From contig NZ_JABEKU010000001.1 in assembly GCF_013283665.1 (NCBI RefSeq), forward strand, positions 1,798,001 through 1,862,000: a stretch of 64,000 nucleotides of DNA, given 5' to 3'. Positions 50,189-61,242 of this stretch are shown here, one piece after another; position 1 is the first letter of the stretch, and every line of letters begins with the position of its first letter. The position numbers and the translations under genes were made by a program. The notes beneath the pieces were generated by a model. It worked only from the letters and a program-made list of their open reading frames with translations, was not told the origin of the DNA and searched no databases. This DNA is from Ensifer sesbaniae (lineage in GTDB: Bacteria; Pseudomonadota; Alphaproteobacteria; Rhizobiales; Rhizobiaceae).

Positions 50189-50234
50189 TCCGCAGCCGTT
50201 TCCTTGGTCGGGCGCGATCGAGGCCGAAAAGTCA

Positions 50235-50271
50235 AATACCGCCTGTCGGGGCCGACAGGCGGTATTTTTTG
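50235..50271 (+). terminator. Strong terminator after the LytM lipoprotein gene
   Basis: ATACCGCCTGTC (50236-50247) pairs perfectly with GACAGGCGGTAT (50254-50265), followed by TTTTT. The gap to the convergent DUF815 gene end is ~40 bp, so it may serve mainly the + strand. Confidence 0.9.
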
Positions 50272-50310
50272 CTAGAAGAGCAGATTTGACCAGGGATGCG
50301 ATCGCGCAGC

Positions 50311-51180
50311 CTATGCGTCGAGGCGATGGCGCATGCGTCCGGCAAGATCCTGAATGAACTGCCAGGCGACGCGGCCGGACCTTGCACCGCGTGTCGTTGC
50401 CCATTCGAGCGCTTCCGCGTGCAAGGTCTCGGCCTCGACGGCGAAGCCGTAGTGCTTGGCATAGCCATCGATCATGGCGAGGTAGTCGTCTTGGCTGCAC
50501 TTGTGAAAGCCGAGCCACAGGCCGAAGCGGTCGGACAGCGAAACCTTTTCCTCGACGGCCTCGGAAGGGTTGATGGCGGTCGACTGCTCGTTTTCCATCA
50601 TGTGGCGCGGCAGCAGATGGCGACGGTTCGATGTCGCATAGAGCAGCACGTTCGACGGACGACCTTCGACGCCACCGTCGAGCACGGCCTTCAGCGATTT
50701 GTAGGACGTATCGTCATGATCGAAGGACAGGTCGTCGCAGAAGACGATCACCGGGACTGGCGCAGTCTTGAGGATGTCCATCAGTGTGGGCAGAGTGGCG
50801 ATATCCTCGCGATGCACCTCGACGAGCTTGATGGCAACCCCGGTCTCGCGGGCCACCTGCGCATGCACCGACTTCACCAGCGATGACTTGCCCATGCCGC
50901 GCGCGCCCCAGAGCAGCACGTTGTTGGCAGGAAAGCCCTCGGCGAAGCGCAGCGTGTTGTCGAGCAGAATGTCACGGACGTGGTCGACACCTGATATCAA
51001 CGACAGTTCGATACGGTTGGGCTTGGCGACCGGCTGCAGGTGATGCGTGGCGGGTGCCCAGACGAAGCATTCGGCGGCGTTCCAATCATTGCTTGCTGCG
51101 GCTGGACCGGCCATGCGTTCGATCGCTGCGGAAAGCTTCTGCATTTCCCGGATGAGAACGTCGATCTTTGCTTCCGGCAT
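50311..51180 (-). CDS. DUF815-family AAA+ ATPase
   Basis: 289 residues. VLLWGARGMGKSSLVKSVHA is Walker A (about residue 90), VIVFCDDLSFDHDDTSYKSL the Walker B region, and LLYATSNRRHLLPRHMMENE the sensor region; all are hallmarks of DUF815. The cellular role of this family is not established. The start at 51180 has GGAG 8 bp upstream on the minus strand; the two Met codons further upstream lack a site. It is isolated, divergent from yajC. Confidence 0.85.
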   Translation of the reverse strand: MPEAKIDVLIREMQKLSAAIERMAGPAAASNDWNAAECFVWAPATHHLQPVAKPNRIELSLISGVDHVRDILLDNTLRFAEGFPANNVLLWGARGMGKSSLVKSVHAQVARETGVAIKLVEVHREDIATLPTLMDILKTAPVPVIVFCDDLSFDHDDTSYKSLKAVLDGGVEGRPSNVLLYATSNRRHLLPRHMMENEQSTAINPSEAVEEKVSLSDRFGLWLGFHKCSQDDYLAMIDGYAKHYGFAVEAETLHAEALEWATTRGARSGRVAWQFIQDLAGRMRHRLDA

Positions 51181-56367: not shown

Positions 56368-57786
56368 TCAGGCGGACTTGCCGAGCCATGCGGCGCAATC
56401 GGCGAGGGCGCGTGATGCCGTTGCCTGCTTCTTGGCAACGGCCTTTTCCTTGCCGCGGAAGCGCTTGGCGCCCTCCGGCTTGGTGATTGCGCCCGGTTCG
56501 AGCGGTGGGAACAGGCCGAAATTGACGTTCATCGGCTGGAACGAACGCTTGCCCGGCTCATCGTCGGAGACGATGTGCCCGCCGGTGATGTGGTTGAGCA
56601 GGGCGCCGAAGGCGGTGGTGGCCGGCGGTGCAGCCAATGCCTCGCCCTTGCGCTCGGCAGCGGCGAAGCGGCCGGCAAGGAGGCCGATGCTGGCGCTTTC
56701 GACATAGCCTTCGCAGCCGGTGATCTGTCCGGCAAAGCGCAGGCCCGGCCGCGATTTCAGCGTCAATGTTGCGTCAAGCAGCGTCGGCGAGTTGATGTAG
56801 GTGTTGCGGTGCAAGCCGCCGAGGCGGGCGAACTCGGCATTCTCCAGGCCCGGGATCATGCGGAAGACTTCCGCCTGGGCGCCGTACTTCAGCTTCGTCT
56901 GGAAGCCGACCATGTTGTAGAGCGTGCCAAGCGCATTGTCCTGGCGCAGCTGTACGACGGCATAGGGCTTGACCGTGGGGTTGTGGGCATTGGTGAGGCC
57001 CATCGGCTTCATCGGCCCGTGGCGCAGCGTCTCGCGGCCGCGCTCGGCCATCACCTCGATCGGCAGGCAGCCGTCGAAATAGGGCGTGCCTTCCCATTCC
57101 TTGAAGCCGGTCTTGTCGCCGGCGATCAGCGCGTCGACGAAGGCGTTGTACTGCTCCTCGGTCATCGGGCAGTTGATGTAGTCCTTGCCGGTGCCGCCGG
57201 GGCCGACCTTGTCGTAGCGCGACTGGTACCAGCAGACATCCATGTCGATCGTCTCGGTGTAGACGATCGGCGCGATGGCATCGAAGAAGGCAAGCGCGTC
57301 GGCGCCCGTTTCCTTACGGATCGCTTCGGCAAGATCCGGCGCCGTCAGCGGGCCGGTTGCGATGACGGCCAGGTCCCACTCCTTCGGCGGCAGGCCGGTG
57401 ATTTCTTCTCGCACGACCGTGATCAGCGGATGGGCCGCGATCGCCGCGCTGACCGCGTCGGAAAAGCCGTCCCGGTCCACCGCAAGCGCGCCGCCGGCCG
57501 GAACCTGGTTGGCGTCGGCGGATTTCATGATCAGCGAGCCGGCGAGGCGCATTTCCGCGTGCAGGACGCCCACCGCATTGCTGGTCGCGTCATCCGAGCG
57601 GAACGAGTTGGAACAGACGAGTTCGGCAAGGCCGTCGGTCTTGTGCGCGTCGGTGCCGCGCACGCCGCGCATCTCATGCAGGATGACCGGTACGCCGGCC
57701 TCGGCGATCTGCCAGGCGGCTTCCGAGCCGGCAAGGCCGCCGCCGATGACATGGATGGGGGAGTGGGAAGTGGTGTCTTTGCTCAT
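56368..57786 (-). CDS. trmFO: Methylenetetrahydrofolate-tRNA-(uracil-5-)-methyltransferase TrmFO
   Basis: 472-residue FAD-dependent enzyme making 5-methyluridine at position 54 of tRNA with methylene-tetrahydrofolate. The FAD-binding [20 protein letters not shown] begins at residue 11; the two catalytic Cys regions, [20 protein letters not shown] (about residue 58) and [15 protein letters not shown], are present. [11 protein letters not shown] and [20 protein letters not shown] match the GidA/TrmFO family; TrmFO is preferred over MnmG by length and position of these Cys. It lies downstream of two DUF1127 mini-genes that have their own terminators. Confidence 0.95.
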
Positions 57787-57887: not shown

Positions 57888-58031
57888 TTAACGGAAGGAA
57901 CGGGCCGCAATGTTGCGGATGTCGTAGCGGGTGATGCCGATGTCATTGAGAGCGTGGTTCGACAGGTTGCCGAGCTCGCTGACGGTGCGGCGGTAGTTGA
58001 TCCAGCTTTTTGCGATACGAATCGGGTTCAT
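57888..58031 (-). CDS. DUF1127 mini-protein 1
   Basis: 47 residues. YRRTVSELGNLSNHALNDIG and ITRYDIRNIAARSF form the DUF1127 (YjiS-like) motif, a single Arg-rich domain. Related mini-proteins in Rhodobacter (CcaF1) and Agrobacterium bind RNA or affect RNA turnover and central metabolism; in Brucella several are activated by the LysR regulator VtlR. GAGGAA lies 7 bp before the ATG (minus strand). It is separately terminated. A TGCACAAAT-containing dyad lies ~110 bp upstream (58138-58168). Confidence 0.9.
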   Translation of the reverse strand: MNPIRIAKSWINYRRTVSELGNLSNHALNDIGITRYDIRNIAARSFR

Positions 58032-58137: not shown

Positions 58138-58168
58138 CTATGCATTTGTGCAGTGCATCGCCGCATAG
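58138..58168 (-). promoter_or_regulatory. Candidate operator upstream of DUF1127 gene 1
   Basis: An outer inverted repeat, CTATGC (58138-58143) and GCATAG (58163-58168), encloses ATTTGTGCAGTGCA (58144-58157; minus strand TGCACTGCACAAAT). The 14-mer recurs exactly at 59371-59384 before the first small RNA. It fits a LysR-type (T-N11-A) binding region; the regulator (VtlR/LsrB?) is inferred. Confidence 0.5.
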
Positions 58169-58392: not shown

Positions 58393-58430
58393 AAAAACGC
58401 CCCCCGGAATGAACCGGAAGGCGTTTTTAC
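58390..58430 (-). terminator. Terminator of the second DUF1127 gene
   Basis: AAAAACGCC (58393-58401) and GGCGTTTTT (58420-58428) pair, with an inner CCGG/CCGG stem (58404-58407, 58414-58417). Flanking A and T runs make it work on either strand. Confidence 0.85.
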
Positions 58431-58463: not shown

Positions 58464-58607
58464 TTACTTGATCGCCTGGCGAGCAACGTACGGGATGTCG
58501 CCGCGGCCGATGCCGAGGTCGCTGAGCTCCCGGTCGCTCATGCGGCCGAGCTCGTTGCAGGTCTGACGATACTTGCGCCAATTGTTGAAAGAACGTGCGA
58601 GGTTCAT
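58464..58607 (-). CDS. DUF1127 mini-protein 2
   Basis: 47 residues. WRKYRQTCNELGRMSDRELS and DLGIGRGDIPYVARQAIK are the DUF1127 motif; the same length as mini-protein 1 but clearly divergent, so an old paralogue pair. AAAGGATAGG precedes the ATG on the minus strand, and a TATATT -10-like box lies ~70 bp upstream. It sits directly downstream of the tandem small RNA genes on the same strand, an association similar to the CcaF1-CcsR locus of Rhodobacter, though there the gene order is reversed. Confidence 0.9.
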   Translation of the reverse strand: MNLARSFNNWRKYRQTCNELGRMSDRELSDLGIGRGDIPYVARQAIK

Positions 58608-58832
58608 GATCCTATCCTTTCTAGGGTCGTTTGCCAGCGCTCTATCTCTCTTGCTGGCCGTCATCTGATGGTCTGGAATATAATCGTTTTGAGCAGAAGT
58701 TACAGAGATAATGCTGCATCGCACCCATGCATCAGGTGCAAGCCTGGGCGCGGTCGCCGGGCCACGAACGGCGCTCGATGCGCATCGTGCAATCGGGTTG
58801 TGGTGGTGAAAGTCTCGACCGAAATCCGGGGG

Positions 58833-58970
58833 GCAAAAACAAACAACGCTCGCTGGGGGAGGAGGTCCAGCGAGCGTCGCTTTGTTCTGATCGGCAACCG
58901 GGAGGAGGAGTGTCGCCGATCCAAATCGAGGGGCGCTGGGAGGAGGAGTGCGCCGCCCCGATCGATGAGT
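58833..58970 (-). ncRNA. Alpha-r14 ('cuckoo', NfeR1-like) small RNA, copy B
   Basis: On the minus strand three hairpins follow each other: H1 (58925-58964, stem GGGGCG/CGCCCC), H2 (58889-58921, 10-bp stem GATCGGCGAC/GTTGCCGATC) and H3 (58846-58877, 11-bp stem ACGCTCGCTGG/CCAGCGAGCGT) followed by TGTTTGTTTTTG, a Rho-independent terminator. All three loops expose CTCCTCC-type sequence (ACTCCTCCTCCC in H1/H2, ACCTCCTCCC in H3), complementary to Shine-Dalgarno sites. This is the hallmark of the alpha-r14/CCUCCUCCC sRNA family, which represses mRNAs such as ABC transporter messages in Sinorhizobium. A possible -10 box, CATACTAT, is just upstream. Start point uncertain. Confidence 0.85.
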
Positions 58971-59028
58971 TGAAGATAGTATGGAGCCGGGCGGAAGGGT
59001 AGAGCTGTTCCAGAATGGCACCTATGCG

Positions 59029-59037
59029 ATCTGTGCA
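59029..59037 (-). promoter_or_regulatory. TGCACAGAT motif upstream of small RNA copy B
   Basis: The minus strand reads TGCACAGAT, one base from the TGCACAAAT before copy A and DUF1127 gene 1. CTATGC (59022-59027) also precedes it on the + strand, as at 58138. A related TGCACAATAT is at 59073-59082. Probably a shared regulator site; inferred. Confidence 0.4.
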
Positions 59038-59121
59038 TGGCTCCGGGCGCGCGCGACCGGAACGTGCACGAATATTGTGCAATTGCTCGACGTGCTGGCT
59101 TTCTTGTGGGGAGGAGAGCTG

Positions 59122-59250
59122 AAAAACAATAACGCCCGCTGGGGGAGGAGGTCCAGCGAGCGTCATTTGAAGTGACTGGCAACCGGGAGGAGGAGTGTTG
59201 CCAATCTGATCGGAGGAGCGTTGGGAGGAGGAGTACGCTCATCCGAATTC
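59122..59250 (-). ncRNA. Alpha-r14 ('cuckoo', NfeR1-like) small RNA, copy A
   Basis: Minus-strand core of three hairpins: H1 (59212-59243, stem GAGCGT/ACGCTC), H2 (59177-59203, stem TGGCAAC/GTTGCCA) and terminator H3 (59132-59163, ACGCTCGCTGG/CCAGCGGGCGT with one U-G pair) followed by TATTGTTTTTC. Loops again carry ACTCCTCCTCCC (H1/H2) and ACCTCCTCCC (H3). Against copy B the loops and the H3 stem are nearly identical, while the H1 and H2 stems differ by compensated changes, which supports real RNA structure. If the promoter at 59352-59380 is used, the transcript has ~100 nt of extra 5' sequence. Confidence 0.87.
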
Positions 59251-59548
59251 TGTCGGGTTTTGCCCGGGCCCTTCCCAGTATCCTGAGGCGGTTGGCCAGT
59301 TCCGCTGGCGATCGTCTGGCTTGCTGCCTTCGTTCGCCTTTGATGATTTGAATATAGGGGCCTTAAATCGATTTGTGCAGTGCAATATCCGCATGGAAGA
59401 TATGCGCATCGCGCAAGCCGTTCAGCAGTCCCTATCGGTGCAGGAGCCGCGCTCGCGACAGAGCGGTTGTATTTCCGCGCCGATACGTGGTTAGTTGGTG
59501 ATGAACCCGGATCATTTCAAGCATCGGATGCTTAAGGCTGAGGGCAGC
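59251..59548. other. Region between small RNA copy A and the DUF2157 gene
   Basis: About 300 bp of divergent promoter space. It holds the minus-strand promoter at 59352-59380 and presumably the + strand promoter of the DUF2157 gene; nothing else could be recognised. Confidence 0.5.
59352..59380 (-). promoter_or_regulatory. Sigma-70-like promoter for small RNA copy A, with overlapping TGCACAAAT motif
   Basis: The minus strand reads CTGCAC (59380-59375), 17 nt, CTATAT (59357-59352), close to the rhizobial CTTGAC-N17-CTATAT consensus. The -35 hexamer lies inside TGCACTGCACAAAT (59371-59384), shared with the DUF1127 gene 1 operator, so a regulator bound there would contact RNA polymerase. Confidence 0.5.
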
Positions 59549-60658
59549 ATGTACCGCGCGCGTCTCGAGCGAGACTTCAAGCACTGGATCGACAAGGGCC
59601 TGCTGCAGGACAATGCCGCACGCGCCATGCTGGCCGAGTATGACGGACGGGAGTCGACCTTCCGAGCCGGGCGCGTCCTGCTCATCCTCGCCGCCCTCCT
59701 GCTATCCGCGTCGATCCTGTTGCTTGTCGCCGCCAATTGGGAGGCGCTGCCCCGTCTGGCGCGGGTTGCCGGCATCGTTGCTCTGATCTGGGGCTTCCAT
59801 TTTGCCGCCGGCTGGCTGTTGCGCGCCGGCAGGGCGGCCTTTGCCGCCGCAGCGCTGGTCCTGGGGGCGGCGGCCTTTGGCGGCGGTATCGCCCTCATCG
59901 GGCAGATGTACCACCTGTCGGGCGATGCGGCTGATGCTGCGCTGCTGTGGTTCGTCGGCGCCAGTCTCTCGGCATTCGCATTTCGCTCGGCGGCGATGGC
60001 AACCGCCGCCGGCGGGCTCGCGTGGTTTTATTTCGGTACGATGTTGACGGAAGGTGCGTTCCCCACGATCTCCGACTGGCACTTGTGGTCCGTGCCGGTC
60101 CTGGCCGTGATCGTCGTTCTCCTGGTTCGTTTCACGGAAGCGGGCAGGGCTCGCCATCTTGCCTATCTGCTCGTTCTTTCCTGGCTGGCCTGGCTCTACC
60201 TGGATAGCCCGTCGCTTGCTTTCGCCGCTGGCCTCGCTGTTCTCGGTCTTGCGGCCTTCCTGGTGGCGACCCTGCCGGGTTCGCCGGTGCGCCAACTTGC
60301 GCTCGATGCCGGTTCGGCGCCCGCCTTCTATTCCTTTGCGCTCGCCCTACTTGGTTTCACCGGGCTCCAATATGAGGCGGTCGGTCTGACGACGGAGATC
60401 GCGGCCGGAGCGGGCACATTGCTGGTGGCGCTCCTCGGCATTGCGCTTGCCGGAGCGCAGAATGGGGCGGTGCGCTATCTCGGCTATGTCGCCTTTGCCG
60501 GAGAGCTTCTCTACCTCGCCTTTGAAACCCTGGGATCGATGCTCGGCACATCGGGCTTCTTCCTGATTTCGGGGCTGGTCGTCGCGTGCATCGCGTGGCT
60601 GGTCATTCGCATCGAAGGGCACATGGCGCGGACGCGCCAGGCGGAGGTTTCGCGATGA
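59549..60658 (+). CDS. DUF2157 polytopic membrane protein
   Basis: 369 residues. The cytoplasmic start RARLERDFKHWIDKGLLQDN is the DUF2157 signature, followed by about eleven hydrophobic segments (LLILAALLLSASILLLVAAN and on). Function of the family is unknown. ATG 59549 has GAGGG at 59540-59544; an upstream ATG at 59501 in the same frame would add 16 residues but lacks a ribosome binding site. It overlaps the GDYXXLXY gene by 4 bp, so the pair is translated together. Confidence 0.82.
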   Translation: MYRARLERDFKHWIDKGLLQDNAARAMLAEYDGRESTFRAGRVLLILAALLLSASILLLVAANWEALPRLARVAGIVALIWGFHFAAGWLLRAGRAAFAAAALVLGAAAFGGGIALIGQMYHLSGDAADAALLWFVGASLSAFAFRSAAMATAAGGLAWFYFGTMLTEGAFPTISDWHLWSVPVLAVIVVLLVRFTEAGRARHLAYLLVLSWLAWLYLDSPSLAFAAGLAVLGLAAFLVATLPGSPVRQLALDAGSAPAFYSFALALLGFTGLQYEAVGLTTEIAAGAGTLLVALLGIALAGAQNGAVRYLGYVAFAGELLYLAFETLGSMLGTSGFFLISGLVVACIAWLVIRIEGHMARTRQAEVSR

Positions 60659-61242
60659 TCAGCGGCACATCGAATAAGCGTTGGCTGAATCCGCTGCTTG
60701 CCGCCCTGCTTGTCGCCGGCGTGCAGACGGCGGCACTCGGCTACATGATCGAGAGCAGGGCCTCGATCCTCCGAAGCGGGCGGGACGTGCTTCTGAAAAC
60801 CGTGCCCGTTGATCCGCGCGACCTGCTCAGGGGCGACTACGTGATTCTGAGCTACGATATTTCCAGGCTGCAGCCTGATCTGCTCAAGGGGGCGCTTCCG
60901 ACGCAATCGGGTGAAGCTGTGCTTTATGTCCGGCTGGAAAGGCAACCCGACGGTTTCTGGACGGCGACCGAAGCGTCGTTCCAACCCTTGCCGCCCGTTG
61001 GCGACAGCGTCGTACTCCGCTCGCTTCCATTCTCGTACTATCCGTCGTCGCCTCCTTCCGCGGTGAATGTCGACTACGGCATAGAGCGCTTCTACGTGCC
61101 GGAGGGCGAAGGGCGCACATTGGAGGAGGCGCGCAATGCCGAGGCGCTTTCCGTCAATATCCGCGTTGATGGAAAGGGCAGTGCGCAGATCCGCGAGATC
61201 GCGGTCAACGGAAGCCCGGTCTATGAAGAGCCGCTTTATTGA
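60655..61242 (+). CDS. GDYXXLXY-domain membrane protein
   Basis: 195 residues: one N-terminal membrane helix (LNPLLAALLVAGVQTAALGY) and a periplasmic domain whose core RDLLRGDYVILSYDISRL contains the GDYxxLxY motif. It ends IAVNGSPVYEEPLY. GDYXXLXY and DUF2157/DUF4401 genes are often neighbours, and here they overlap (ATGA). The role is unknown. GGAGG at 60642-60646 precedes the start. Confidence 0.85.
   Translation: MISGTSNKRWLNPLLAALLVAGVQTAALGYMIESRASILRSGRDVLLKTVPVDPRDLLRGDYVILSYDISRLQPDLLKGALPTQSGEAVLYVRLERQPDGFWTATEASFQPLPPVGDSVVLRSLPFSYYPSSPPSAVNVDYGIERFYVPEGEGRTLEEARNAEALSVNIRVDGKGSAQIREIAVNGSPVYEEPLY

Follow-up and report, generated by a model that had tools for sequence, protein, structure and literature searches.

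Organization of the locus

The window, the whole 64 kb stretch of Ensifer sesbaniae DNA analysed here, carries two copies of the small RNA ar14 (copies A and B) and two genes for small DUF1127 proteins. On the minus strand the order is ar14, ar14, DUF1127, DUF1127 and then the anchor gene of the locus, a PF01134 GidA-type gene which we take to be trmFO. The best segment of the window TrmFO shares 95% identity with the TrmFO of Ensifer adhaerens Lc04, which places the organism in the Sinorhizobium/Ensifer group. The features are given below in the direction of the minus strand.

59352..59415, minus strand: predicted promoter of copy A (pattern match, relatives, genus genomes)
59415-59402, minus strand: LsrB-type box of copy A, TGCGCGATGCGCAT, with 1 mismatch (pattern match)
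59385-59374, minus strand: element TTGCACTGCACA of the very conserved copy A promoter
59357-59352, minus strand: -10 of copy A, CTATAT (pattern match)
59252..59345, minus strand: structured 5′ leader of copy A with a predicted pseudoknot (alignment of 23 leaders, pair counts)
59127..59251, minus strand: ar14 copy A, three hairpins (RF02344 match, fold, loop positions)
59223-59231, 59185-59193 and 59143-59151, minus strand: loop motifs CCUCCUCCC of copy A (motif positions in the fold)
58974..59081, minus strand: predicted promoter of copy B (positions as in the published PnfeR1; genus genomes)
59081-59065, minus strand: NtrC-type site of copy B, TGC-N11-GCA (pattern match)
59037-59024, minus strand: LsrB-type box of copy B, TGCA-N6-GCAT (pattern match)
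58979-58974, minus strand: -10 of copy B, CTATCT (pattern match)
58841..58966, minus strand: ar14 copy B, the likely NfeR1/SmelC397 counterpart (RF02344 match, fold, promoter layout)
58938-58946, 58900-58908 and 58857-58865, minus strand: loop motifs of copy B (motif positions in the fold)
58678..58791, minus strand: predicted promoter region of DUF1127 no. 1 (box/-10 layout)
58791-58778 and 58740-58727, minus strand: LsrB-type boxes of DUF1127 no. 1 (pattern match)
58683-58678, minus strand: -10 of DUF1127 no. 1, TTATAT (pattern match)
58464..58607, minus strand: DUF1127 no. 1, small protein of 47 aa (PF06568, 61 bits, cut-off 23.3)
58393..58428, minus strand: terminator-like hairpin 3′ of DUF1127 no. 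1, the site of ar14 or its apparent remnants in some relatives
58144..58168, minus strand: box upstream of DUF1127 no. 2, similar to the VtlR motif known from Brucella (3 mismatches of 15)
57888..58031, minus strand: DUF1127 no. 2, 47 aa (PF06568, 53.6 bits)
56368..57786, minus strand: trmFO, anchor gene of the locus (PF01134)

A sequence-only reading had placed the element at 58833..59250. Both copies are indeed there, but the element is larger: a predicted leader of copy A, separate promoters and the two DUF1127 genes belong to the locus. Divergent plus-strand genes for a DUF2157 membrane protein and a GDYXXLXY protein (59495-61242) flank the locus, and DUF2157 also adjoins it in the genus genomes and in several other relatives. 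Elsewhere in the window, positions 641-753 of the plus strand match the Rfam rpsB sRNA family (40.9, cut-off 40).

Two tandem copies of the ar14 family

Both copies match the Rfam ar14 model (RF02344) over model positions 1-123. Copy A (59251-59127) scores 113.7 bits (E 2.8e-20) and copy B (58966-58841) scores 105.6 bits (E 1.8e-18), both above the curated cut-off of 58.8, and no other match in the 64 kb window exceeds this cut-off. A weak match at 50234-50320 was excluded from the sequences used. The covariance-model check thus confirmed two minus-strand copies of the ar14/NfeR1 class, as had been proposed from the letters alone. Also as proposed, CCTCCTCCC is present in six of six loops; its complement GGGAGGAGG occurs 6 times in 58801-59300, once per loop of A and B. 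A seventh CTCCTCCC lies at 59109-59116 on the minus strand, just 3′ of the T-rich end of copy A and outside both ar14 matches. The two copies are linked by direct repeats of 73 nt (79% identical) and 43 nt (91%), with spacings of 285 and 286.

The tandem pair occurs in all 16 genomes of the genus, and ar14 is found in 60 of the 61 genomes of the family sample. In the order sample, ar14 is present at E up to 0.001 in 78 of 249 genomes and exceeds the cut-off in 42; all these counts include the own genome. None of 14 control genomes has ar14. The host genome (6.9 Mb, 5 contigs) contains four ar14 copies in total. The two copies outside the window (L002 1501-1620 and L004 1501-1621) have different upstream sequences, show no match to the window DUF1127 proteins within 1500 nt and have 5 mismatches each to the box/-10 layout described below. 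The family and function class of the pair were already known from S. meliloti; ar14 membership, structure, covariation and promoter motifs with their conservation are established for this locus in the present analysis.

Predicted promoters and probable S. meliloti counterparts

The founding member of ar14 is NfeR1 (SmelC397, SmrC14), whose promoter has an NtrC site at -116 to -101 and an LsrB box TGCA-N6-GCAT at -72 to -60 (PMC10746234). With a start at 58966, copy B has an NtrC-type site at -115 to -99 and an LsrB-type box at -71 to -58, the positions expected of an NfeR1-orthologue promoter. Counted from the script's start, all 16 genus genomes have the NtrC-type site at -114 and their best LsrB-type box at -70. 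Together, box and -10 carry no more than 2 mismatches in 13 of these genomes and 3 or 4 in the other 3. The published -35 (CTTAGAC) is poorly matched 5′ of the copy B -10 in the window.

No NfeR1-like promoter directly adjoins copy A; a very conserved promoter sits farther upstream, and its layout is found with at most 2 mismatches in all 16 genus genomes. None of the 16 has an NtrC-type site 35-55 nt 5′ of the copy A box. The position of the -10 makes a copy A start near 59345 most likely and predicts a transcript of ~219 nt.

The LsrB box alone was rejected as evidence: the genome contains 259 TGCA-N6-GCAT sites (122 forward, 137 reverse) compared with 74 for a reversed control. Because the lone box is so frequent, we used the box and the -10 at fixed spacing instead: an LsrB-type box followed 56-59 nt further on by a CTATAT-like -10, the two having no more than 2 mismatches in total and lying within 260 nt upstream. 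This layout was found at 13 of 20 loci for copy A, 4 of 8 for copy B and 16 of 20 for DUF1127 no. 1, the window, where the layout was first noticed, being counted in each group. It turned up in 10 of the 4000 random stretches and in 6 of the 3000 shuffles that served as controls. Given this shared layout, one LsrB-type regulator probably controls copies A and B as well as DUF1127 no. 1. DUF1127 no. 2 was rejected from this class, since only 1 of 20 loci has at most 2 mismatches and its box is of another type; its box region has a 14-mer, ATTTGTGCAGTGCA, in common with the copy A promoter.

For S. meliloti 1021, a published sequencing table gives SmelC397 (SmrC14, later NfeR1) at 1667491-1667614, minus strand, 124 nt, and SmelC398 (sra38, Sm7) at 1667766-1667982, minus strand, 217 nt (PMC2873474). 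Copy B is 126 nt long and copy A ~219 nt as predicted, and the gap between the copies is 160 nt here versus 151 nt in S. meliloti. Copy B resembles NfeR1 in that it matches the model over its full length, has three CCUCCUCCC hairpins, shows the same arrangement of NtrC and LsrB sites and lies in tandem. Copy A resembles SmelC398 as the 5′ neighbour of NfeR1 on the same strand with nearly the same size. Coordinates, order, strand, sizes and promoter layout, rather than sequence, thus fit B as the counterpart of NfeR1/SmelC397 and A as that of SmelC398/sra38. Searching by its names, we found no papers on SmelC398 beyond its entry in that table, as far as the accessible texts go.

It could be argued that B alone acts and that copy A is a duplicate in weak use or silent. 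Only one of six S. meliloti copies was reported to be detectable by northern blot under the conditions tested (PMC7143759), so copy A may be weakly expressed. We nevertheless consider this reading unlikely. SmelC398 is tabulated as a transcript in S. meliloti (PMC2873474), all 16 genus genomes retain the promoter layout and the three loops of copy A, and copy A has a higher ar14 model score than copy B.

DUF1127 genes and related small RNA systems

Tandem sRNAs adjoining a DUF1127 gene are also found in Rhodobacter (CcsR1-4 and CcaF1, CIN1 locus, cuckoo RNAs). CcaF1 is described as an RNA-binding DUF1127 protein that aids CcsR RNA maturation (PMC10253847). That system is transcribed as a single unit in which DUF1127 leads, and the transcript is processed by RNase E. 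The window could by analogy hold a CcaF1-CcsR-type operon whose sRNAs are cut by RNase E from a DUF1127 mRNA: the sRNA loop class is the same, two DUF1127 genes adjoin, and in 22 of 80 named trmFO loci DUF1127 precedes ar14 (one to six copies), with at most 80 nt between the ORF and ar14. In the window, however, ar14 lies upstream of both DUF1127 genes, no DUF1127 ORF is directly upstream as in the CIN1 type, and each copy has a promoter-like layout of its own, which makes such an operon very improbable here. The likeness to CcsR suggested by the sequence-only reading therefore holds for the class of RNA but not for the gene order.

AbcR1/2 (ar15) are likewise tandem trans-sRNAs with aSD motifs, and AbcR1 is LsrB-activated; they differ in belonging to another family, having two aSD motifs and binding Hfq, whereas NfeR1 is described as Hfq-independent. 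Identity with AbcR/ar15 was rejected, since the window has no RF00519 match at the gathering score. Among other DUF1127 proteins, small ones of Agrobacterium act on PhoR (PMC12501420). VtlR, the LsrB counterpart, activates Brucella DUF1127 genes and an orthologous Agrobacterium small protein (PMC12595884, PMC7486931, PMC11975290).

Structure of the copies and of the copy A leader

Minus-strand folding gave the three hairpins per copy that had been claimed, with z values of -8.7 (A) and -6.4 (B), which none of 200 shuffles reached; on the plus strand they were -2.0 (A) and -0.7 (B). Hairpin 3 had also been called a terminator. T-rich DNA follows it, and this reading of the sequence suggests the label, but the terminator scan of the minus strand, which permits loops of at most 8, does not list it.

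In the copy A register, 13 of 36 pairs differ between A and B. Four of them, two from H1 and one from each of the other hairpins, are changed on both sides yet keep pairing, in agreement with the compensatory stem changes that had been proposed. Five are changed on one side and still paired, and four H1 pairs are unpaired because B folds H1 in a shifted register. The example given for compensation, C-G to U-G in H3, is absent; the H3 differences are U-A to C-G, A-U to G-U and U-G to U-A.

The structure is also conserved in related genomes, a check that the sequence-only reading had named. In alignment A3 of 32 copies (19 of 32 available from the genus, plus 13 others), two-sided changes occur in 20 of 36 pairs (shuffled 8.6) and 95.7% of cells pair (shuffled mean 90.7), with 0 of 500 shuffles as high in either count; since the reference structure comes from copy A, the slid controls are biased in favour of the copy A structure. 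The loop cores are invariant and the stems variable among the 32 family sequences of alignment A1 (28 of 29 family loci and 4 own copies). Minus-strand open frames of 144 to 185 codons do cross the stretch, but the pairing-preserving changes across 32 sequences and the curated family match RF02344 leave practically no chance for a coding region or a chance repeat in place of an RNA gene, and a coding origin was rejected on this covariation.

The leader of copy A spans 94 nt from the predicted start to ar14. It contains no ATG in the strand read and has no Rfam match at E up to 1. We aligned 23 of 34 extracted leaders (alignment A2), excluding 8 that were short or hard to align and 3 with a DUF1127 ORF. 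The structure counted, which we named from the fold of L007 and inspection of the alignment, has four hairpins and a pseudoknot between a loop GGYC and a downstream GRCC. Across the 23 leaders, 87.4% of cells pair (shuffled 80.4) and 45 cells are changed on both sides (shuffled 16.7), with 0 of 500 shuffles as high in each case and the counts inflated by relatedness. One pseudoknot pair (columns 90-120) is U-A in 13, C-G in 9 and unpaired in 1 of the 23. Further pair types are at shuffle level (281 of 500 shuffles as high). RNAalifold on the same alignment gave 7 pairs only, with a covariation term of +0.19 and no bonus, leaving most of the model unrecovered. Folds of five single leaders had z values of -2.3 (window), -3.6, -3.4, -1.6 and -1.0. 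As modelled, the copy A leader looks like a conserved structured RNA without an Rfam match. In the part of the open literature that was searched, we found no prior description of this leader or of the unit-loss history discussed below.

Proposed mechanism and targets

Copies A and B are very probably two trans-acting ar14 (NfeR1-type) sRNAs that form separate transcription units and block ribosome sites with their loops. The three CCUCCUCCC loops of each RNA would pair with G-rich Shine-Dalgarno regions and block the translation start of several mRNAs. Copy B would be transcribed from its own promoter, activated by LsrB at its box and repressed by NtrC at its site, and copy A from an LsrB-type promoter that has no NtrC site, with the pseudoknotted leader at its 5′ end. 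LsrB activation, NtrC repression and ribosome-site blocking are inferred by carrying over the S. meliloti work. There, NfeR1 is activated by LsrB and repressed by NtrC (PMC10746234), and its three CCUCCUCCC loops redundantly silence mRNAs at translation start (PMC10746234, PMC7143759). The action of this founding member supports the earlier guess that the loops pair with ribosome binding sites.

We rejected ntrB as a target here. With one assumed start codon and a simple duplex test, the ntrB start region shows no good loop pairing (longest match AGGA), and 495 of 500 shuffles pair with the loop at least as well. An ntrB pairing is thus not evident in the E. sesbaniae genome, in difference to NfeR1, and on this test an NtrBC feedback loop should not be assumed for this species. 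As a feature of the target rather than of the RNA, the missing pairing lowers the target claim only. The pattern GGGAGGAG-N5-10-ATG occurs 32 times in the own genome versus 5 times for the reversed pattern. These 32 sites are possible candidate targets; such an excess is expected of Shine-Dalgarno sequences generally and therefore names no target.

Evolution of the locus

We mapped the locus order on a quick TrmFO tree of 81 rows. DUF1127 ORFs were detected with a profile built from the two window proteins, and 72 of 85 ar14 matches were used (70 in named loci, 2 in the window), leaving out 12 weak or cut matches in named loci and the weak window match. The DUF1127-first order, with ar14 directly after the ORF as in CcaF1-CcsR, is that of the outgroups; these loci belong to Mesorhizobium, Phyllobacterium, Brucella, Aurantimonas, Oricola and others. 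The longest ar14 arrays among the named loci are in Aurantimonas, with six (L047 4083-4890) and four (L053 2193-2687) tandem copies after one DUF1127 ORF. The reverse order, ar14 before DUF1127, is found in 19 of 80 named trmFO loci and in the window. It lies in a starred group of 28 TrmFO rows (Rhizobium, Sinorhizobium, Shinella and kin, the window included) and in L034 just outside; in the starred group there are also 6 loci that have DUF1127 but no ar14, and 3 that lack both. Weak ar14-like matches just 3′ of DUF1127 in L071, L074, L081 and L082 were excluded, so the cut-off accounts for part of the DUF1127-only state of the outer clade.

Four loci look intermediate in architecture. In L102 and L111 the copy A element TTGCACTGCACA is followed by an intact DUF1127 ORF, ar14 and two more DUF1127 genes; in L097 and L034 the order is ar14, then DUF1127-ar14, then DUF1127. 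A second tree places all four close to the root of its Rhizobiaceae part, though with modest support (80 to 84), the genome of L097 being on a long branch; L144 and L049 are also flagged there as long branches. The site after DUF1127 no. 1 varies as well. L034 (Pararhizobium) has an intact ar14 there. L009, L012 and L013 have, by eye, an apparent hairpin 2 whose aSD loop is shortened, as well as a hairpin-3-like terminator that lacks this loop, and in the window, again by eye, the terminator alone remains.

There is about an even chance that the locus arose by duplication and complementary loss of a single LsrB-driven unit of promoter, DUF1127 ORF and ar14. In the lineage of the window, two units would have lost the ORF and become stand-alone sRNAs, with the pseudoknotted leader replacing the ORF in copy A, and two would have lost the sRNA and become plain small-protein genes. 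The activator site would have stayed common to three of the four units. A 3′-UTR sRNA would thereby have been freed from its mRNA and later gained signals of its own, such as the NtrC site of copy B. Against this order of events, the ar14-first loci L091 and L092, whose TrmFO rows are partial (27% and 25% of columns), lie outside the Rhizobiaceae group of the second tree at an open fork. Alternatively, the DUF1127 ORF may have been inserted in L102 and L111 instead of lost elsewhere.

Implications

As small RNAs, the two copies extend the known ar14 family, and the tandem pair itself is known from S. meliloti; the value of the finding is in the locus. The present analysis adds the promoter layouts of copies B and A, the copy A leader, the box/-10 layout that DUF1127 no. 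1 shares, and the DUF1127-ar14 intermediates. The promoter layouts predict a division of duties in which B responds to nitrogen through NtrC and A does not. The neighbourhood suggests a way in which such RNAs may have split off from a small-protein gene: it offers a plausible path by which a 3′-UTR sRNA bound to its mRNA, as in CcaF1-CcsR, could have given rise to stand-alone sRNAs, each with a promoter of its own. Such a history would explain the co-occurrence of DUF1127 proteins and ar14 RNAs.
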